In this document: one piece after another, positions 1,196-26,237 of the stretch
Layout: the number at the start of each line of letters is the position of its first letter
Position numbering within the stretch: the stretch's first letter is position 1
Source: a virus
IMG/VR virus record: IMGVR_UViG_3300046355_000240
Coordinates: 1-26,237 of that record
Strand: one strand, 5' to 3'
DNA: 26,237 nucleotides
Translations under genes and position numbers: made by a program
Notes under the pieces: generated by a model
Databases searched by the model: none
What the model was told of the DNA's origin: nothing
The model's input: only the letters and a program-made list of their open reading frames with translations

Positions 1196-1948
1196 TTATT
1201 TTTTTAATTCGTCAATTTGTTTTTTCAATTCTTTTATTGATTCTATAATTAATGGAACCAATCTTTCATATCTTACAGTTAAATACTGTTCATCGATAGG
1301 TGCAGGTGCCACAACTTCCGGCATTACTTCTTGAACTTGTTGTGCAGAAACACCAACTTCTCTAACAGGTTCATAACCTAATTGCTGTGCAGTTTCATTG
1401 GCTTCATAATAGAAACCACTTAATGTCATTAATTTATCCAACGCATTATCAATATTGCCTAATTTTGTTTTCAATCTATCATCAGAGTAGTAAGCAGTAA
1501 TGTTGTTAGTCGCTCGGATTTCTCCTGCTGTTCCTGAAGCCGCAGTACCAACACCCATTGAACCAAACTGTACACTAGATGATGTTGCGACTGCTTGGCC
1601 AATAGCAACCGTTGGTGCAGTTGCAGTACCTCCAATGGTAACACCAGTACTTGCACTAACCGAAGCAACTTTAGTATCAGCTGTTGTAATACCAAGAGAA
1701 CCTCTATCATAGGCTGATTTAACACTACTTGGTGTAGCAGCAGTTGTTGTACTAGTAGAACTTATAGAATCTGTTAATTGAACAACACCTGTTTGAGATG
1801 TTGTTGCTGAACGTATGGTATTATTTGTTGCTAAAGTAATACGTCCTTGAGAGTCCACCGTGGTTACAGGAATAATAATTGTACTACCGTATGTTCCTGC
1901 GGTCACACCTGTGTCGGCCAATACAGAACTTGTAATTTTTGTTGTCAT
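1196..1948 (-). CDS. Tail fibre tip with C-terminal S74 intramolecular chaperone
   Basis: This 250-aa protein is in three parts. Residues about 1-50 carry a fibre-like IPVTTVDSQGRITLAT stretch. Residues about 53-80 (TGVVQLTDSISSTST..., TPSSVKSAYD) match the tail-fibre repeat common in T4- and lambda-type side fibres. The C-terminal ~100 residues match the peptidase_S74 / intramolecular chaperone domain: YSDDRLKT at 154-161 with the Ser155/Lys160 pair typical of the self-cleaving site, then VGVSAQQVQEVMPE, YLTVRYERLVPLIIESI and a lysine-rich coiled-coil end. In this family the domain drives trimer folding and is then cleaved off before the Ser. The first part would therefore be a mature trimeric tip of about 154 residues. 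The start is supported by an AAGG upstream (AAGGCAATAATAA before the ATG) and a late-promoter-like box at 1975-1982. It is the first gene of the last transcription unit in the window. Confidence 0.9.
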   Translation of the reverse strand: MTTKITSSVLADTGVTAGTYGSTIIIPVTTVDSQGRITLATNNTIRSATTSQTGVVQLTDSISSTSTTTAATPSSVKSAYDRGSLGITTADTKVASVSASTGVTIGGTATAPTVAIGQAVATSSSVQFGSMGVGTAASGTAGEIRATNNITAYYSDDRLKTKLGNIDNALDKLMTLSGFYYEANETAQQLGYEPVREVGVSAQQVQEVMPEVVAPAPIDEQYLTVRYERLVPLIIESIKELKKQIDELKK

Positions 1949-1974
1949 TTATTATTGCCTTTTATAACCTTAAA

Positions 1975-1982
1975 TATTTATG
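1975..1982 (-). promoter_or_regulatory. Late-promoter-like box CATAAATA upstream of the S74 fibre gene
   Basis: The minus strand reads CATAAATA, one base from the T4 late consensus TATAAATA, in one of the few real gaps (1949-2020, 72 bp). Transcription would start near 1969, about 20 bases before the ATG at 1948. This leaves room for the AAGG ribosome site and would let the tip genes be expressed separately from the long baseplate unit. No clear GC-rich terminator hairpin lies in the gap. Confidence 0.5.
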
Positions 1983-2020
1983 TTTAATCTTTTTATACTG
2001 GTTTCAATAATGATTTATGC

Positions 2021-2692
2021 TTACCAAGCAAAATATACACGACCAGCAGCACCTGGATTTCCTGGAGCAGTAAAGTCGTTTCCGCCCGAACCACCTGTAC
2101 CATAGCCAGAGCCGTTGTTACCACCAACGCCACCAGTTGCAGAAGGGAATGCTCCGTCACCACCAGCTACACCGTTAGGAGAACCACCAGCACCACCAGG
2201 AGGAGATGAATCCCCACCAAAAATATATGATTGGCCACCACCGCCACCCGTAGCTACGTTACCATCTATTGCTGAATTACCGCCTGACCCGCCTAGTGCT
2301 TGAGAGTTGTAGCCAGAACCAGCACCACCGCCACCCACAACAATAGTCAATACTTGACCAGGAGTGACAGAAATATTAGTGTCTATTTTACCGCCTGAAC
2401 CACCGCCACCACCACTGACAACAATCTGACCGTTATAGAAAGTACCACCGCCACCGCCACCACCACCTACAATTTGCGTTGAGATGTTATAGATACCGTT
2501 AGGTACAGTCCAGTAATATGTACCAGGACTGGTATAGTTCAAAGCCCCAGTAGATTCAGGGAAAGATTTTTGCCACACCCCGTTGTTGTTTACCCAAACA
2601 GCTTTTACGGTTTTCCAAACACCAGCATCCTTAACAAAGATTTGTTTTGAAGGTGAAAAGACACCTGCGTTTTTAACGTAAATATTAGGCAT
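2021..2692 (-). CDS. Glycine-rich fibre-associated protein
   Basis: This is a 223-aa protein starting with MPNIYVKNAGVF. The ATG at 2692 overlaps the stop of the large fibre gene as TAATG. An in-frame TTG 15 bases upstream is a poorer start. Residues 1-45 hold three copies of a short V(K/N)xxGVW-type unit (YVKNAGVF, FVKDAGVW, WVNNNGVW), a motif known from N-termini of phage tail proteins. Residues about 52-65 (YTSPGTYYWTVPNG) lead into a glycine-rich domain from about 76 to the end, with 8 Gly at 76-83 and many GGGG/GGSGG turns, closing on GAAGRVYFAW. This layout is typical of glycine-rich tail domains that pack as polyglycine-II-like sheets. I infer a fibre tip or decoration coupled to the 1065-aa fibre. 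Receptor binding is likely but unproven. Confidence 0.85.
   Translation of the reverse strand: MPNIYVKNAGVFSPSKQIFVKDAGVWKTVKAVWVNNNGVWQKSFPESTGALNYTSPGTYYWTVPNGIYNISTQIVGGGGGGGGTFYNGQIVVSGGGGGSGGKIDTNISVTPGQVLTIVVGGGGAGSGYNSQALGGSGGNSAIDGNVATGGGGGQSYIFGGDSSPPGGAGGSPNGVAGGDGAFPSATGGVGGNNGSGYGTGGSGGNDFTAPGNPGAAGRVYFAW
2444..2467 (-). repeat. Polyglycine triplet tract (8 Gly codons)
   Basis: Eight consecutive GGT/GGC codons encode residues 76-83 of the 223-aa glycine-rich protein. The composition matches the tracts at 329-361 and 3577-3600, which makes in-frame slippage or recombination between the fibre genes possible. Confidence 0.75.
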
Positions 2693-5600
2693 TAGACTAG
2701 ATACCAAACATCACCGTTAGAACCACCAGAAGGACCTCCTGTAGACACGGTTCTGGTACCATATCCATTAGTACCCAAAGAGGATACTGTTAATGAGTTA
2801 ATTGTTCCATTAGTAATAGTTGCACCACTAATTGTCTTGTTTGTTAAAGTAGCTGATGCAGCTCTTTCACCTATAACAAAAGCTGTAGTAGCTATTTGTG
2901 TTGTGTTGGTGCCTCCTGCAGCTGTAGGAGCAACAGGTGTTCCAGTGAAAGTTGGACTAGTAAACATTGTAGCTTTACTTTCATTAGTAACACTACCTAA
3001 TCCAACTTTAGTTGCTGTTATTGTTAACCAAGATGGGTCTGTATAGGATCCTGTTGTGTAAACACCATTTGTTACGGTACCTGCATTACCTGAAATACTA
3101 TGACTAAATGTATTTCCACTTTGATTTAAAGCATTTTTAACAAATGATGTTGTTGCAAAATGAGTATTTGATGCATTTGTATCAACGGTTAAACCAATTG
3201 TTTGTCCTGTAAATGTTGCACCCGCCACTGCAGCTTTTCTGCTTTCCAAACTATCAATTGCCAACTGAATCGTATTTGCTGAAGCAGGTATTGAACCTGT
3301 TACAGGACCATAAGTAATATTATTAGCGTAATATGGATTTATAATATAACCATCAACTTCAATTAAGACTGCATCTCCGTTCTGTGGTGCAGAAGTAAAT
3401 GAGATTGTTGAATTAGAAACGTTGGCTGAATATTCAGATTCGAATTGTCTAACACCATTAATATATGCACGAAGTTGCGTACCTGTGTTAAATGTTGGTG
3501 TGGCAAAATTGGTTTGACCGTTGGTGTTAGCTGTATAAGATAAACGAGTCGAATTAATTGTTGTTCCTGGAGTAGCACCGCCGCCACCACCGCCACCACC
3601 AGCTGCCCAATAGTAATTACCAGGACCGCCTGTTGTTAAAACATAACCAGCTATTGTACCTGTTGGTAATAAAGTTGTTAATGCAGATGCAGCCGATGTT
3701 GTTCCTGTTCCACCTTGTGCTAATGCTAAAGGTGAAGTCAATATCAATGAGTTAAATGTTGGATTGGCTGTTGTTCGTAAATCTTGTGGTGTGTTAAGTG
3801 TTAAAGTATTACCAGAAGCCGAAGAAAGAACTCCATTTGTTGAATTTATTGTTATTGAACCTGCTGTAGGTGTTAAAGAACCTGTTGTTCCTACAATATT
3901 ATTGGCTGCTGTATTAGCTCTAGAGTATGCAGTATTGGCATAAACTTCTGCGGCTGCGGAACCTATATTATGGGTTGAGGTTCCATCAAAATATGTCCAT
4001 CTATCAGAGGATTCATTCCACAACAATTGAGCGTTTGCACTTGTACCACGAGCAACTTCAATACCGGCACTTTCGGATGGTGTTGTATTTTGATTAATAT
4101 CAGCATTCAAAGTGATTATATTATCACCAAGATTTACTGTTGTTGTATTTGCATAGAATGTTTGACCAGTAACAATTAAATTGCCAGTAATATTCACATC
4201 ACCGGAAAGTGTTCCACCAGTTCTAACGAAAAATGTTGAATCAACATAAGATTTCATTGCACTATTGGCAGAAGTAACAAATGCATTTGTAGAAACCAAA
4301 TTGGCATCTATGTATTGTTTCATGTCACTATTAGCGGTAGAAATTGCACTTGTTAATATAGAAACATTGGCATCTACATATTGTTTCATTGCACTATTAG
4401 CTGTAACAATACGAGTGTTTAGAGTATTAGCTGCAGCTGCAGTTGAAATTGCAATTGAAGAACTATTTGTTAAATCACTAGTTAATCTTCCAGCATCTAA
4501 AATTTGAAAGAATACTGTATTAGCTGGATCGGTAGATAAATCCCAATATCTTTGAGATTCGTTCCAACGAACTGAAGCATTTTGAGAAACAGAGTTGGCC
4601 AATGATAGACTATTATTTGTTCTATATGTACCCAAAATCGTTGTTTGGTTTGGAGTAGCAACGGAAAGAATTAATTGGTTTGAATTATAAACAGTATTAC
4701 CGTTAATTGTAAAATCTCCACCAACAGATAAATTACCAATAACTTGTCCTGTGCTAAATTGTGCAGTTCCAGTAACATCTAACGCACCGCCAATATCAAC
4801 ACGACCTGATGTTCGGATTGTTCCAGCATGTGTTAATCCTGTTGTAACTAAATTTCCAGATGTTGTATTACCAGTAACATTCAATGTTGTTCCAACAGTT
4901 GCAGCTGAACCGATATCAGCACGAGCAGTTGTTCTTAGTGCTCCAGTTTGAACCAATCCTGTTGTTACCACATTACCAACAGTAGTATTACCAGTAACAT
5001 TCAATGTTGTTCCTATGGTTCCTAGACCAGAAACTCTTAATGTTCCGGACGAAACCACATTCGATGTTGTTAGATTACCAACCGCAGTATTACCTGTTAC
5101 AGATAATGTTGCACCTACAGTAGCATTTCCAGTGATTGTTGTGTTGCCTAATGTTGATGTCGTAATTGTGGCTGTATTAACGAAAGCCAAATTAGAATTT
5201 AATGTGTTTACATTTCCTGTAACAATGATGCCTGTCGAGATGTTACAAATATCAACATTTGCTTTTATTGAAGTTAAATTTTGAACATTGCCTGTTGTTA
5301 TTGTTGCTATGCTTATGGTAGATAATGTGACTATTTCTTCACCAATTGTCGCTGAAGTAATATCTGTGTTTGTGGATGTCAAATCTGTAATAGTCGCTGT
5401 GTTTACTTTTGCAACACCAGTATTTACATATAAAACATCACCCGTTCCATTTATTCTTAAAAGTCCACCAATAGATTGACTTCCACCAACAGATACGTTT
5501 GAGTTTGCTACTATGTTATTTGTTGTCAGCGTTCTTGTAACTTGCATATTGCTATTCACAAGAGCATTATTCGAAACTAATAAAGAAGCTCCAGGTCCAC

Positions 5601-5889
5601 GAACAGTTAATACACCACCAACAGTAACATTACCTGTTGCTGTTTCTTGTGCGCCAATTGCAATATCACCACCAACCGAAACGTTACTTTGGAATAAAGC
5701 AGAGTTTGAAACTTGTAATGCAGTACCATTTGCAGTGATAACTACTTGAGAGTTTCCACTAACAGTTAATATACCATTAGATTTAGTATAATTACCAGTT
5801 TCTAAATTATTGAGAGATGTGGCTTCTTGATTGGTCTGAATTCGCCATTCATCAATAGTATTTGTTCTGCTTATAATTGGAATTGACAT
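2692..5889 (-). CDS. Large repetitive tail fibre protein
   Basis: This 1065-aa protein begins SIPIISRTNTIDEWRIQT, an N-terminus I associate with fibre proteins of T4-like marine phages; it probably anchors to the baseplate through the DUF4815 protein. An AAGG overlapping the stop of the 76-aa gene supports the ATG at 5889. Residues about 40-450 are beta-rich repeats built on TLxVTGNTTVGNxxTTG and SVGG/DIGG units, suggesting a long trimeric beta-helix shaft. The motif (L/V)RWNESxxxW / LWNESSDRW occurs twice, each time followed by a shaft restart. Around 500-570 are three (M)KQY(V/I)DAN units. Eight Gly lie in a row near the middle of the C-terminal half (3577-3600). The C-terminal region has two phage-fibre ATT(A/S)FV units and ends GGPSGGSNGDVWYLV, a typical fibre end. 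No cysteine-rich or S74 domain is seen, so tip folding or specificity may depend on the downstream small proteins. Confidence 0.9.
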   Translation of the reverse strand: MSIPIISRTNTIDEWRIQTNQEATSLNNLETGNYTKSNGILTVSGNSQVVITANGTALQVSNSALFQSNVSVGGDIAIGAQETATGNVTVGGVLTVRGPGASLLVSNNALVNSNMQVTRTLTTNNIVANSNVSVGGSQSIGGLLRINGTGDVLYVNTGVAKVNTATITDLTSTNTDITSATIGEEIVTLSTISIATITTGNVQNLTSIKANVDICNISTGIIVTGNVNTLNSNLAFVNTATITTSTLGNTTITGNATVGATLSVTGNTAVGNLTTSNVVSSGTLRVSGLGTIGTTLNVTGNTTVGNVVTTGLVQTGALRTTARADIGSAATVGTTLNVTGNTTSGNLVTTGLTHAGTIRTSGRVDIGGALDVTGTAQFSTGQVIGNLSVGGDFTINGNTVYNSNQLILSVATPNQTTILGTYRTNNSLSLANSVSQNASVRWNESQRYWDLSTDPANTVFFQILDAGRLTSDLTNSSSIAISTAAAANTLNTRIVTANSAMKQYVDANVSILTSAISTANSDMKQYIDANLVSTNAFVTSANSAMKSYVDSTFFVRTGGTLSGDVNITGNLIVTGQTFYANTTTVNLGDNIITLNADINQNTTPSESAGIEVARGTSANAQLLWNESSDRWTYFDGTSTHNIGSAAAEVYANTAYSRANTAANNIVGTTGSLTPTAGSITINSTNGVLSSASGNTLTLNTPQDLRTTANPTFNSLILTSPLALAQGGTGTTSAASALTTLLPTGTIAGYVLTTGGPGNYYWAAGGGGGGGGATPGTTINSTRLSYTANTNGQTNFATPTFNTGTQLRAYINGVRQFESEYSANVSNSTISFTSAPQNGDAVLIEVDGYIINPYYANNITYGPVTGSIPASANTIQLAIDSLESRKAAVAGATFTGQTIGLTVDTNASNTHFATTSFVKNALNQSGNTFSHSISGNAGTVTNGVYTTGSYTDPSWLTITATKVGLGSVTNESKATMFTSPTFTGTPVAPTAAGGTNTTQIATTAFVIGERAASATLTNKTISGATITNGTINSLTVSSLGTNGYGTRTVSTGGPSGGSNGDVWYLV
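3577..3600 (-). repeat. Polyglycine triplet tract (8 Gly codons) in the fibre
   Basis: Eight GGT/GGC codons between YYWAA and ATPG of the 1065-aa fibre form a glycine linker between two halves of the C-terminal region. Its base composition matches the glycine tracts in the two downstream tip genes. Confidence 0.75.
4865..5013 (-). repeat. Near-tandem 120-bp repeat units in the fibre shaft
   Basis: A 29-base segment (plus strand begins GTATTACCAGTAACATTCAA) occurs identically at 4865-4893 and 4985-5013, exactly 120 bp or 40 codons apart. It encodes the TTLNVTGNT core of the shaft repeat. A diverged third copy starts at about 5087, 102 bp further on. This suggests recent unit duplication. Confidence 0.75.
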
Positions 5890-18909: not shown

Positions 18910-19791
18910 TTATGAGTTTAACCGGGTAAGAAGTTTGTTGGAACCAATATAATTTTGTAATAGATTATTAGCTGTGGCGCCAGTATTACTGAATATTTTT
19001 AATTGAGAATATTCATCCACAACAGCTCTAGAATTAGTATAAAAGTTTTCATCATGGGTTCTGCGGAAAGCAAGATTTGTATTGATTGTTGTTATGTTAT
19101 TAGACATATTTTGAACTACGGATAACGACAAATTTGATGTTCTTACGAATGGGTCGGTTGTAGCATCCGTTCCACCACCCGTAATAGTTATACTATTACT
19201 AATTGTAGTATAATAACTTGAGATGTTTGAATAGAGCGAATCTAATTCATTCTCAATCAGAATACTAGTAAAACTACCCATAATGGGTGAATTATTTGAA
19301 ATGTTATCGGATTGATTAGTCAAATACATCATCATCTGACCAGTCGACATAGCAGTTTCATAGTGTGGTAACAAAGCTGTATCAGCACCTGTTTCTGGAG
19401 ATGCACTCAACGGTGTTACTCCAGATATTCTATTTGTATGGGCGATGAATAATCCACCATTATTACTTCCAATATTTGCAGATAACGTATTTATGGTATT
19501 AAATAATGTTGTTATTTCACCTGTTGTTCCTGATACCGCTTCAGTATTTGTTGATGGATTTGGTGACAATAGTGCAACCAATGTATTACTTGTATTTCTA
19601 ATATTTTGGGTTACTGTCGAAACAGGATTTGTAAAATATCCACCAACATCATTATTAGCTATGTCTTGTTGAGCCCAATCTGGTAAAAGACTAGGTACAG
19701 TATTCATGAATGATTGTGTATTACTAGATAATTCAAAAACTGAATTACTTGTCGTTTGAAAATTATATTGCAGTCTATCAAAAATTCCCAT
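18910..19791 (-). CDS. Unassigned structural protein between spike and gp25
   Basis: This 293-aa protein opens MGIFDRLQYNFQTTSNSVF and is rich in Asn, Ser and Thr; it contains SLLPDWAQQDIANNDVGGYF and an MSTGQMMMYLTNQSDN segment in the middle. It has no signal peptide and no clear membrane segment. Helices rich in Asn/Thr (TQNIRNTSNTLVALL, NMSNNITTINTNLAF) suggest an extended or coiled structure. An AAGGAA ribosome site overlaps the stop of the spike gene. Its place between the spike and gp25, inside an otherwise fully baseplate unit, argues for a hub or spike-associated virion protein. T4 has no counterpart at this place that I recognise. It could also be an assembly factor like T4 gp26, gp28 or gp51, but there is no sequence support. 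Confidence 0.8.
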   Translation of the reverse strand: MGIFDRLQYNFQTTSNSVFELSSNTQSFMNTVPSLLPDWAQQDIANNDVGGYFTNPVSTVTQNIRNTSNTLVALLSPNPSTNTEAVSGTTGEITTLFNTINTLSANIGSNNGGLFIAHTNRISGVTPLSASPETGADTALLPHYETAMSTGQMMMYLTNQSDNISNNSPIMGSFTSILIENELDSLYSNISSYYTTISNSITITGGGTDATTDPFVRTSNLSLSVVQNMSNNITTINTNLAFRRTHDENFYTNSRAVVDEYSQLKIFSNTGATANNLLQNYIGSNKLLTRLNS

Positions 19792-19799
19792 AATATTCC

Positions 19800-20567
19800 T
19801 TATACCATTGGTAGAATAGGTGTTCCTGTCATTCCTCTTGGAGCAGGATGTATATGTGTTTTGTAAATATTTGTATTAACTGTGTCTGTCATTAACACAG
19901 CTGTCATTAATCCAAATGTTCCAATTGGTGCATCAACTAAAGCTAAAGAAGTAATGGGACCAACAGAAAAAATACCTAAAGGTCCAGAATAAACACCAGT
20001 ACCAGCATTAACACGAGTTTCAGCTGTAACAATATCAGCTGCAACAGAACCGGCAACTACCAAATCAGACGCAACTGTTACATTATCAGCAGCTGCAATA
20101 CGAACCGCACCACCAAAATTTTCATTAGCAGTGATTGATATATCTTCGTCACCTGAAATTGAAATATCTCCAACCACACGTTGATTCATTTTGCCTGCAA
20201 CTTCAAGGTTATAATCACCTTTAACCGACATATTAAAATCTTTAAGAACTTGCATATTGCAATCACCCTCAACGGTAATATTGCAAGTCCCCTTTATTAA
20301 AACATTTTTATTCTTTATGGTAATTTCATATCCATCACCGTAAACTTTATGAACTTCATCACCATTGGGGTGCATTTCAATAAATGTTCCGGAACGATGT
20401 TGTAATCTAACTCGCTCTCTTGACGGTGTATCATCCATTTCAAATGAATGACCTGATTCAGTTAGAGTAATATTATTGTATGGATAAACGGGCTGATAAT
20501 CGGTATTGGCTGCCGATTCAGGTTCAGTCCAAAGATTATTTGATGGTGGTTGGTTTAGTGTTGACAT
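19800..20567 (-). CDS. Tail spike needle, gp5 C-terminal (VgrG-tip-like) beta-helix protein
   Basis: This 255-aa protein matches the C-terminal part of T4 gp5 and of VgrG tips. TESGHSFEMDDTPSRERVRL and HRSGTFIEMHPNGD (residues about 36-70) are the conserved entry. They are followed by short V(K/E)G-type repeats (ITVEGDCNMQV, MSVKGDYNLEVAGKMNQRVVGD) that form a triple-stranded beta-helix. Residues 238-240 are H-I-H near the C-terminus (KTHIHPAPRG), like the HxH iron-binding tip of P2 gpV-type spikes. In T4 this needle is made as the end of gp5 and cleaved off; here it is its own gene, starting at a TAATG overlap with the OB-fold gene. It would sit under the hub and pierce the outer membrane. 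The stretch 150-230 is unusually Ala/Val-rich and less regular. Confidence 0.9.
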   Translation of the reverse strand: MSTLNQPPSNNLWTEPESAANTDYQPVYPYNNITLTESGHSFEMDDTPSRERVRLQHRSGTFIEMHPNGDEVHKVYGDGYEITIKNKNVLIKGTCNITVEGDCNMQVLKDFNMSVKGDYNLEVAGKMNQRVVGDISISGDEDISITANENFGGAVRIAAADNVTVASDLVVAGSVAADIVTAETRVNAGTGVYSGPLGIFSVGPITSLALVDAPIGTFGLMTAVLMTDTVNTNIYKTHIHPAPRGMTGTPILPMV

Positions 20568-21901
20568 TATGGTGCTTGTAAATTTGTTAATGTAGATACT
20601 ATTGCATTATTACTACTAGTTGTATATGAATTTATGTAGGTGTTTGCGGCCTCAACTTCCGATTGATTAACAGGCACCAATAATCCAGTAGTTGCAACAT
20701 CAATAACTACTTGAGCACCAGTAAAAGCAATTTGTGCGCTTTCAACTGTATCGTAAAAAGCATCAGCAGCATCAACAGCTGCAAGTATAGTATCACCAAC
20801 TTCAATTCCAAGACCTTCTTTGAATCCAGAAACAGTATCAAATAAAACTTGTTTAATCAATTTCAACAATTTCAAATAACAGTCATTCAACATCTTCAAA
20901 AATCTTTCAGGCAAGTTTAATAACCAAGTAATCATAGCACGAATTTTGGTAATATATGCCAATACATATTTTTCAAAATCAATGATTGGTTGAATAATTT
21001 CTTTTTGTATTCTTCGCAACTCACGAGCAAAAGCTTTCAGTGTATTCAATATCCAAGAATACTGACCTGTTGCATCTGAAAACCCTAAAGCTTTCATAAC
21101 TTTGCGTATCATTTCACGAATTTCATTTGCTAATGCTTTAGTATATTTTTTAAGGTTAATATTCTTTTGCATTTCAGAAACGAAATCACAAACGTGTGCA
21201 AGGTCGTTGTTGTTCTTATTAATCGTTGTACCTTCAAGCACACCACGACCTAATCTAGAAATTGTTGGTTCGTTCTGTTTATAAAATACCACATCTGAAG
21301 GAGGTACTGGGTCGCCGTTTACATCTTCTTGTTTTCTTTCATCTTGCCAAGGTTGACCAGGTTTTTTATTTAAATTTGATTTAATTTTTGAAATCTGAGA
21401 TTCCAAATCAGATATAACTTTTTGTTGAGTAACAATTTGTTTAGATAAATTATTTCTTAAACCGTTAGGTGACACAAAAGCTGCACCGCCGGCATTTTCA
21501 GTAGTTTTCTGATTAAGTAAAACTTGTAATTTCTGTTTCTCAACGACCAATTGAGCTTCAAGTATTTTTAATTGCTCAGAATCGTTTGTAACTTCTCTTG
21601 GTTCATTTGTTAATATACCAGGAAATACACCCATGATAATAGGCATCTGTGCATTATGTCCATCTAAGAAATAACCAGAAACCCAATCACCTTCTTTAGG
21701 TAATGAAATTGATTTTGAATTATTAACAGGAAGTAAAATTTGAGCCCATGGCAAATCACTAACGGGAACTTTATTCTCATTCTCATCATGCCAACCAAAT
21801 ATTCTTACTTTACATCTACCAACGTTGGCTGGGTCTTTTCGGTCAACAATTACACCTGTCCACCAAATAAAACCATTTTTACCAGCAAAATCTCTTTCCA
21901 T
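20567..21901 (-). CDS. 5: Baseplate hub gp5 OB-fold protein without lysozyme
   Basis: Residues about 7-95 of this 444-aa protein match the gp5 N-terminal OB fold (NGFIWWTGVIVDRKDPANVG, VRIFGWHDE, SDLPWAQILLPV, EGDWVSGYFLDGHNAQMPII, MGVFPGI). In T4 a lysozyme domain follows; here no lysozyme motif is seen. Residues about 105-175 instead form a charged coiled coil (LKILEAQLVVEKQKLQVLL), then a Pro-rich linker. Residues about 240-360 form a helical region with an amphipathic, hydrophobic stretch at 312-355 (ITKIRAMITWLLNLPERF, LKLLKLIKQVLF). The end (365-444) is Ala/Val/Thr-rich. T4-like cyanophages also have a gp5 lacking lysozyme, so this is probably a lineage trait. It should trimerise with gp27 and carry the separate spike encoded next. 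Its ATG follows the gp27-like stop by 3 bases. Confidence 0.9.
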   Translation of the reverse strand: MERDFAGKNGFIWWTGVIVDRKDPANVGRCKVRIFGWHDENENKVPVSDLPWAQILLPVNNSKSISLPKEGDWVSGYFLDGHNAQMPIIMGVFPGILTNEPREVTNDSEQLKILEAQLVVEKQKLQVLLNQKTTENAGGAAFVSPNGLRNNLSKQIVTQQKVISDLESQISKIKSNLNKKPGQPWQDERKQEDVNGDPVPPSDVVFYKQNEPTISRLGRGVLEGTTINKNNNDLAHVCDFVSEMQKNINLKKYTKALANEIREMIRKVMKALGFSDATGQYSWILNTLKAFARELRRIQKEIIQPIIDFEKYVLAYITKIRAMITWLLNLPERFLKMLNDCYLKLLKLIKQVLFDTVSGFKEGLGIEVGDTILAAVDAADAFYDTVESAQIAFTGAQVVIDVATTGLLVPVNQSEVEAANTYINSYTTSSNNAIVSTLTNLQAP

Positions 21902-25117: not shown

Positions 25118-25125
25118 TATTTATA
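25118..25125 (-). promoter_or_regulatory. T4-type late promoter for the baseplate operon
   Basis: The minus strand reads exactly TATAAATA, the late consensus recognised with phage factors gp55, gp33 and gp45 in T4. Transcription would begin near 25112, about 18 bases before the gp48 ATG at 25094, leaving space for its AGGA site. It lies in the only 30-bp gap between the divergent genes gp48 and gp4, and its first base on this strand is also the A of the gp4 start codon. Confidence 0.75.
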
Positions 25126-25574
25126 TGACTTTCGGTAACAAAACCTATAAGGGTATCTTTAAACCTAAGAACCCAGCCAAATATAAAGGTGATGCGAACA
25201 ATATCATCTACCGTTCTTCTTGGGAAGTGCGAGTGATGAAGTATTTTGACGACCATCCACAGGTAGTATGGTGGGCTTCAGAAGAATTGGTAATTCCTTA
25301 CTACAATCCAATTGACAATAAGATGCACAGATACTTTCCTGATTTTGTAGTAAAGATGAGAAAGAATAATGGTTTAGTTATGACTTATGTGATTGAAGTA
25401 AAACCACATTCTCAAACTAAACAACCGGAAAGAAAAAGAAAGACACAAAAGTTCATTAACGAACAAGTAACTTATATTGTCAATCAATCAAAGTGGAAAG
25501 CTGCTGATGAGTTCTGTCATGAACATGGATGGGAATTCAAGATACTAACTGAAAAGGAACTTGGATTATACTAA
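25125..25574 (+). CDS. 4: Head completion protein gp4 (PD-(D/E)XK-like nuclease)
   Basis: At 149 aa it equals T4 gp4 (about 150 aa). It has the family's YRSSWEVRVMKYFD segment, then RYFPDFVVKM and YVIEVKPHSQTKQP. Together these give a nuclease-type site: Glu34, Asp73 and Glu91-x-Lys93. In T4, gp4 is needed to complete the filled head before tail joining and is thought to trim packaged DNA ends. It is divergent from gp48. No good Shine-Dalgarno precedes the ATG at 25125. A TATAAGTT at 25103-25110 is a weak late-box candidate for it. Its stop overlaps the stop of the convergent HNH gene by 2 bases. Confidence 0.93.
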   Translation: MTFGNKTYKGIFKPKNPAKYKGDANNIIYRSSWEVRVMKYFDDHPQVVWWASEELVIPYYNPIDNKMHRYFPDFVVKMRKNNGLVMTYVIEVKPHSQTKQPERKRKTQKFINEQVTYIVNQSKWKAADEFCHEHGWEFKILTEKELGLY

Positions 25575-26053
25575 CCGTGATTAGCAAATTTACCGTGGTG
25601 TAAATCTCTCGCTTCCGTTATAACTAATTCAGCTAGTTCCAAATCATCATATTTACCTAATTTAAGTCTTTTTGAATTAACCATCAATTGTGGCCACCAT
25701 TTCTTACTACCTTTATGCCAAATAATACCTTTTATTCCAGACTTATTGTTTGAACTTATTTTACGATTGTGCATATTTTGATTGTGACTGCACTCTCTTA
25801 GGTTTTCAATTTTATTATTTAATGGGTCACCGTCTATGTGGTCTATGAATTTGGGAGTGTATCCGTGATGTAGAGTGAATATTATGCGATGGACTTTGTG
25901 TCTTTTACCTTGAATTCTGACCACACGATAACCACTAGAATGATAAACTCCAGCTTTAGTTCCTGGTTTCATTCCATTGGGAGAACCTTTTTTCCAATAT
26001 ATTTGTCCATCTATATAATAGAAAAGGTTTTCTAATTCTGTTTTAGTAAGCAT
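25571..26053 (-). CDS. HNH homing endonuclease with AP2 DNA-binding domain
   Basis: This 160-aa protein shows the free-standing homing endonuclease layout of T4-like phages. An N-terminal part runs to SSGYRVVRIQGKRHKVHRII. The HNH core is His55, then FIDHIDGDPLNNKIENLRE with His72, Asn80 and Asn84. The C-terminal AP2-type domain covers about 103-155 (KSGIKGIIWHKGSKKWWPQL, KLGKYDDLELAELV). All key residues look intact, so it is probably active and mobile, cutting an allele that lacks it near gp4 or the next gene. It faces gp4 tail to tail. Upstream, TTGACC and TATAAT 15 bases apart resemble a host-type promoter, but the -10 touches the ATG, so this is weak. No phage late box precedes it. Confidence 0.93.
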   Translation of the reverse strand: MLTKTELENLFYYIDGQIYWKKGSPNGMKPGTKAGVYHSSGYRVVRIQGKRHKVHRIIFTLHHGYTPKFIDHIDGDPLNNKIENLRECSHNQNMHNRKISSNNKSGIKGIIWHKGSKKWWPQLMVNSKRLKLGKYDDLELAELVITEARDLHHGKFANHG

Positions 26054-26164: not shown

Positions 26165-26237
26165 ATGGCATACCTCTTAGACCGTATCAAAAAACAACTA
26201 TCGGAAAAAACTTTGGAACGAGGTTCCAACGCTTACC
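26165..26237 (+). CDS. Start of a plus-strand gene (partial, 24 codons)
   Basis: The ATG at 26165 opens MAYLLDRIKKQLSEKTLERG and stays open to the window edge. It is a basic, helical N-terminus. The gene runs in the same direction as gp4 beyond the homing endonuclease. No Shine-Dalgarno is visible, and a TATAAATA lies 4 bases upstream. In relatives gp4 neighbours other head- or tail-completion genes (gp2, gp3), so such a role is possible, but the fragment is too short to name. Confidence 0.6.
   Translation, partial: MAYLLDRIKKQLSEKTLERGSNAY

Follow-up and report, generated by a model that had tools for sequence, protein, structure and literature searches.

A T4-type baseplate locus with separate genes for the OB-fold adaptor and the needle, a helical family in the lysozyme position, and wall digestion probably encoded in the hub operon

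Introduction

How does a T4-like phage open the bacterial cell wall if its gp5 carries no lysozyme? In phage T4, puncturing and wall digestion are coupled in one gp5 chain, which is later cleaved. The question is raised by the IMG/VR virus record IMGVR_UViG_3300046355_000240, which we analyzed over its full 26,237 bases (hereafter, the window). The window is the whole IMG/VR entry and most likely a genome fragment. A first-pass annotation, made from the letters alone, proposed that gp5 is here divided into two genes, that a long helical region replaces the lysozyme, and that the phage must cross the wall in another way, either through disturbance of membranes by the helical region or through a wall-degrading activity encoded elsewhere. 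We favor, with a probability of about 0.64, the reading that the locus encodes a T4-type cell-puncturing device minus its muralytic enzyme, in which the helical domain (HEL) would be structural and the wall would be digested by a protein of the hub operon.

Results

Organization of the locus

The minus strand of the window carries a T4-type baseplate operon consisting of cap48, gp53, a gp27-like hub gene, the OB-fold gene gp5N, the needle gene, u293, gp25, gp6, and further wedge and fibre genes (Table 1). The gp27-like gene (phrog_350) lies directly upstream of gp5N, matching the gp27 hub neighbourhood of T4 gp5. The relatives of u293 are 265-304 aa long and were found as 323 matching stretches in IMG/VR; u293 had no accepted PHROG family and no matches in isolates. 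The tail-fibre genes, at 1196-5889 and 2-625, encode glycine-rich proteins, a 1065-aa repeat protein and a Peptidase_S74 chaperone-type fibre. Beyond the baseplate operon, the window continues in the order seen in its relatives, up to the start of gp2 (MAYLLDRIKKQLSEKTLERGSNAY) at its very end. The genes gp4 and gp2, adjacent in most relatives, are separated here by an HNH gene, which is likely a homing endonuclease.

Table 1. Features of the window, in its coordinates, and wall hydrolases at the hub operons of related contigs (G numbers)
Feature	Position	Strand	Remarks
gp5N, OB-fold hub adaptor + helical hairpin + HEL domain, 444 aa	20567..21901	-	counterpart of T4 gp5*, HEL in lysozyme position
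OB fold, gp5N residues about 10-102	21596..21874	-	VIA Z 11.5 to T4 gp5; phmmer
Optional antiparallel helical hairpin, gp5N residues 104-178	21368..21592	-	AlphaFold pLDDT about 97; nearest homologues lack it
HEL domain, gp5N residues about 205-444	20570..21289	-	invariant N231, H236, C238, G279, L330, P331, C341
TAATG stop-start overlap	20565..20569	-	lies near the position of the T4 Ser351/Ala352 maturation cleavage
gp5C triple beta-helix needle, 255 aa	19800..20567	-	PHROG and PDB matches
gp27-like hub protein, 441 aa	21905..23230	-	phrog_350, E 3e-74; homologue in Ochrobactrum phage OC annotated from HHpred to 1WTH chain D
u293, conserved protein between spike and gp25	18910..19791	-	position constant in loci covering it
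gp4 head completion protein	25125..25574	+	first gene of divergent operon
HNH endonuclease gene	25571-26053	opposite	inserted between gp4 and gp2
gp2, first 24 codons (MAYLLDRIKKQLSEKTLERGSNAY)	26165..26236	+	cut by record end
GH24 lysozyme (G008, G010)			large hub-operon gene, about 6 kb upstream of OB, opposite strand
GH19 (G002, G004, G022)			large hub-operon gene
VgrG3-like C-terminal domain (G007)			match at edge of cut-off
phiKZ gp144-like lytic transglycosylase (G020)			large hub-operon gene
Lytic transglycosylase (G014)			weak match
M23 (G017)			large hub-operon gene
M23 (G011)			gene next to large hub-operon gene

The OB fold and the needle are encoded by separate genes

Both open reading frames of the proposed gp5 pair were confirmed in coordinates, length and strand, as was the TAATG junction, which reads ...GCA CCA TAATG TCA... 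and gives an overlap of one base. The assignment of the two chains also stood. Residues 9-102 of the 444-aa chain are the T4 gp5 OB fold: they matched gp5 in the PDB (phmmer, E 6e-10) and gp5 families in PHROG (E 7e-31), and were modeled by AlphaFold with a pLDDT of about 90 and superimposed on T4 gp5 over 91 residues at 2.3 A. The 255-aa chain is a gp5C beta-helix needle with matches in PHROG (1e-43) and to phage spikes in the PDB (1e-18); its Gp5_trimer_C match falls below the Pfam cut-off. Where T4 makes a precursor chain that is cleaved, the record has two genes.

The maturation cleavage of T4 gp5 takes place between Ser351 and Ala352 (PMC3004832). In the PDB search, the alignment of the needle starts with its residue 15 at T4 residue 378, so that the needle gene begins about 13 residues downstream of the T4 cut. 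Thus, the gene boundary yields about the same two chains as proteolysis does in T4.

We then considered 94 distinct complete HEL proteins, collected from IMG/VR in searches with gp5N, the HEL alignment and the u293 alignment. A separate spike gene followed HEL in 93 of these, and HEL-spike fusions were found in none (0/94), so that the split is more than chance or sequencing error. A sequencing error is ruled out as its origin, given that numerous independent contigs repeat the split and have proper start codons. The OB fold and HEL were fused in 33 of the 94 and encoded separately in 61, with at least 4-6 switches between the two states on the HEL tree, the branches of which are long and the details unsure. 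The order cap48-gp53-gp27-OB-HEL-spike-u293-gp25-gp6 was constant in the loci spanning it. Some of the loci with OB and HEL split carry an extra gene of 70-75 aa between the two (L008:637-849, L013:3503-3718, L031:3502-3720 and contig G010 (L229)).

The lysozyme is missing from gp5

As proposed, the helical region stands where T4 gp5 holds its lysozyme, and neither chain contains a lysozyme or peptidase recognizable in Pfam, PHROG or the PDB. Phage_lysozyme matched neither chain, and the PDB matches to gp5 cover the OB and spike regions only. This absence concerns gp5 and cannot be extended to the whole phage, since the record stops short of the neighbouring gene that matters.

HEL is a conserved helical domain

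Two structural details of the earlier description had to be revised. Residues 105-175 of gp5N, read before as a coiled coil, are predicted instead to form an antiparallel two-helix hairpin (residues 104-137 and 146-178). This hairpin is optional: the window and a few relatives have the insert, and the closest homologues, of 370-373 aa, lack it. Residues 312-355, described as strongly amphipathic, are a hydrophobic stretch with 18-residue hydrophobic moments of 0.3-0.6, against the highest values of 0.74-0.77 at residues 283-306. The AlphaFold model of the 444-aa chain, built with 69 rows of relatives, combined a confident OB fold and a very confident hairpin with low-confidence helices beyond them. 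Modeled alone, HEL gave four long helices with a mean pLDDT of 62.7; such low confidence can happen, and would fit, if the domain folds only in an oligomer.

No related family emerged for HEL. Sequence searches of Pfam, PHROG and the PDB returned no accepted family and no accepted hydrolase, tblastn with three different HEL members against 50,697 phage records returned nothing at E 0.05, and a pattern-based search of 84,980 prokaryote species, each represented by one genome, recovered no relative. Structure searches of the PDB and BFVD with the low-confidence models of the 444-aa chain and of HEL found no match to the HEL fold: for the HEL model (pLDDT 62.7), Foldseek listed no match below E 1, and the best VIA hit (Z 7.5 over 69 residues) was to unrelated helices, with no lysozyme listed. 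Judged from these comparisons, HEL is a new protein family. The hidden lysozyme or peptidase fold sought in residues 180-360 did not appear either in this low-confidence model (pLDDT 62.7), in which a divergent enzyme may have gone unrecognized.

An alignment of 63 HEL sequences under 90% identity revealed a signature, N-x4-H-x-C-D ... G ... LP-x9-C, of which N231, H236, C238, G279, L330, P331 and C341 are invariant in 63/63 and D239 nearly so. The invariant H-x-C-D...C residues suggest a structural metal site or a cysteine lock (disulfide). Against the structural reading, the invariant His and Cys could be catalytic: HEL would then be an unrecognized peptidoglycan or membrane enzyme that acts through His236, Cys238, Asp239 and Cys341 and replaces the lysozyme in place. 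Besides the invariance of the H/C/C residues, this proposal can draw on the position, where relatives have hydrolases: T4 its lysozyme, the Melnitz OB protein a VanY-like match, and Ochrobactrum phage OC both Phage_lysozyme2 and M15. However, no Pfam, PHROG or PDB family is accepted for HEL, the all-helical model has no fold match and HEL contains no HExxH or M15 motif, and we consider an enzymatic HEL quite unlikely. A search pattern based on the spacing of the T4 lysozyme catalytic residues was discarded as a hydrolase test; it was too crude and also missed the GH24 domains.

Another possibility is that HEL is a helical linker that serves only for spacing and is a homologue of the middle part of gp5 in marine cyanophages (about residues 215-450). 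The two occupy the same position, a PHROG 1922 match spans residues 4-358 of the window protein, and the best hhalign alignment pairs collinear regions. However, the hhalign probability was 3-9%, and reversed decoys scored as high or higher in both directions, so that homology to the cyanophage middle regions was dropped. Furthermore, the cyanophage alignment did not show the invariant residues of HEL, and their strict conservation in HEL (N, H, C, G, L, P and C) argues against a mere spacer. We regard this explanation as improbable.

The hydrophobic character of the domain bears on one of the two routes envisaged at the outset, namely, that HEL itself breaches the envelope, its long amphipathic or hydrophobic helices inserting into or disturbing the membrane, with no need for a virion wall enzyme. 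The high hydrophobic moments at residues 283-306, the hydrophobic stretch at 312-355 and the conservation of HEL throughout the clade would agree with such a role, as would weak matches of a few HEL members to PHROG tape-measure profiles. However, a similarly weak match, that between HEL and cyanophage gp5, was reproduced by reversed sequences, and periodicity alone can thus give matches of this kind. Together with the findings on wall hydrolases described below, which make its premise unnecessary, this renders membrane disturbance by HEL an unlikely explanation.

Relatives encode wall hydrolases in the divergent hub operon

In the relatives, the divergent operon comprises gp4, gp2 (phrog_429), the tail tube gene (phrog_45), a hub gene (phrog_150) and a gene for a large protein, followed by gp32 on the other strand. 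The large gene adjoins the hub gene in all 15 contigs that cover the place (15/15), about 6 kb upstream of the OB gene, and encodes proteins of 456-793 aa, the N-termini of which belong to related families across the 15 contigs. Wall hydrolases with library support were found at 10 of the 15 loci, one of them a weak match, and were encoded in the large gene, or, in one case, in its neighbour (Table 1). With a hydrolase at 10/15 loci, no membrane-active HEL is needed to account for passage through the wall, and a wall-degrading activity encoded elsewhere is favored over disturbance of membranes; for the phage in the window, this is by inference. In the other five contigs (G009, G012, G013, G019 and G023, of which G009 and G023 are near-identical), the large gene had no library hydrolase match; some of the five looked lysozyme-like by eye and were left uncounted, and a PDB search with a profile built from the G009/G019 domain gave no match.

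Searches with the single families M15_4, M15_3, M23, VanY, NlpC/P60 and SLT detected none of these in the large contigs of the clade. These negatives are misleading because the enzymes found later belong to other families or lie in other contigs. A Pfam scan of most structural open reading frames of contig G001 showed no hydrolase among the 25 families listed out of 26; this contig starts at gp2 and does not have the relevant gene. It does encode a separate GH19-like protein of 208 aa (G001:106586-107212, in L126), far from the baseplate genes, which is probably the lysis endolysin.

The operon position and hydrophobic segments of the large protein suggest that it is part of the virion. These two features and a single weak PHROG tape-measure match, in G002, make it at most a putative tape measure. 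Isolates carry a hydrolase domain like that of G008 on proteins whose annotation reads ejection or internal virion protein.

The window stops short of the corresponding gene. The distance from the OB start to the record end is 4.3 kb, and in the relatives the large gene begins 5.6-7.1 kb from OB; thus, the enzyme gene, if present in this phage, lies outside the record. The closest relatives of the window (L004-L007) are likewise too short to show it. From synteny, we infer that this phage has a hydrolase gene there.

Discussion

A possible mechanism of entry

The structural reading can be described as a sequence of steps. The 444-aa gp5N would be the counterpart of gp5*, with its OB fold under the gp27-like hub and the C-terminal HEL in the lysozyme position, and the 255-aa chain would correspond to gp5C. 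With a gene boundary close to the T4 cut, the needle would be made as a chain of its own from the outset and held without covalent bonds. HEL, which is conserved whether fused to the OB fold or encoded alone, is most likely not an enzyme but a structural helical module around the top of the needle or between the hub, the needle and the tape measure. The OB-HEL trimer would sit under the hub and hold the separately made needle; upon contraction, the needle would pierce the outer membrane. The wall would be opened by the hydrolase on the hub-operon protein, which would be carried along with the tube or with what the tube contains. Wall digestion is most likely carried out by the large protein of the gp4-gp2-tube-hub operon, the hydrolase domain of which is interchangeable among the relatives and presumably present in this phage. 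A more elaborate version, which we put forward tentatively and hold to be possible rather than probable, would make HEL a helical collar or gate, locked by metal or by cysteines, at the needle top and the hydrolases exchangeable cartridges on a separate hub-operon protein, with puncturing and digestion evolving independently in a large uncultured T4-like group.

This group of related phages appears to have uncoupled the needle from wall digestion, with a needle gene of its own, a conserved helical family, and an enzyme elsewhere that changes type among the relatives. From such loci one could learn, as from a natural experiment, what the OB-needle assembly requires apart from an enzyme. They also offer for study a new family that is marked by an invariant H-x-C-D...C signature, and a hint as to where the entry hydrolase may sit in T4-like phages with a hydrolase-less gp5.

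Comparison with known systems

The locus shares with T4 gp5 (gp5*/gp5C) the OB fold under the hub, a triple beta-helix needle that is separate from the OB chain, and the upstream gp27-like gene. It differs from T4 in having two genes instead of proteolysis, in carrying the GH24 lysozyme in neither chain, and in placing HEL and an optional helical hairpin where the lysozyme would be.

Lysozyme-less gp5 was named in the first-pass annotation as a feature of T4-like cyanophages, and Pfam agrees: the gp5 proteins of the marine T4-like cyanophages (Kyanoviridae) ACG-2014b, S-CREM1 and S-BM3 contain no Pfam hydrolase and, like the locus described here, have a long middle region between the OB fold and the needle. 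However, gp5 of the Kyanoviridae is a single chain of about 770-910 aa, and its middle region matches HEL no better than reversed decoys do. The gp5 of Pelagibacter phage Mosig (QOI69089) likewise combines an OB fold and a needle with no lysozyme but is one short chain of 361 aa with little between the two.

The isolated Methylophilales phage Melnitz (MZ577095-98) has a split gp5 of its own, in which the OB gene (346 aa) shares one base with the spike gene (667 aa). In contrast to the window, Melnitz has a VanY-like match in the OB chain, an M15-like match in the spike and no HEL, and its split gp5 is not beside a gp27-like gene in the deposited map. The VanY-like and M15-like matches (L042:7986-11029) stand against the statement in the Melnitz paper that there are no lysin-like genes besides gp67; gp5 is not mentioned in that paper. 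Ochrobactrum phage OC carries M15 and Phage_lysozyme2 in the interval between OB and needle or in the needle tail, whereas the HEL clade has no recognizable hydrolase there.

Wall hydrolases that reside on a tail protein other than the spike, as in the relatives of the window, have precedents: virion wall hydrolases are known on tape-measure or hub proteins, in TM4 and T5 and on the hub of A-1(L) (PMC1796659, PMC6116005, PMC10966104). Unlike in these phages, the type of hydrolase in the relatives of the window changes between related phages on the hub-operon protein, the tape-measure identity of which is putative. Thus, a hydrolase on a tail protein is a known kind of mechanism, and what appears to be new is its occurrence together with the HEL family and a gp5 that is split and free of enzyme.
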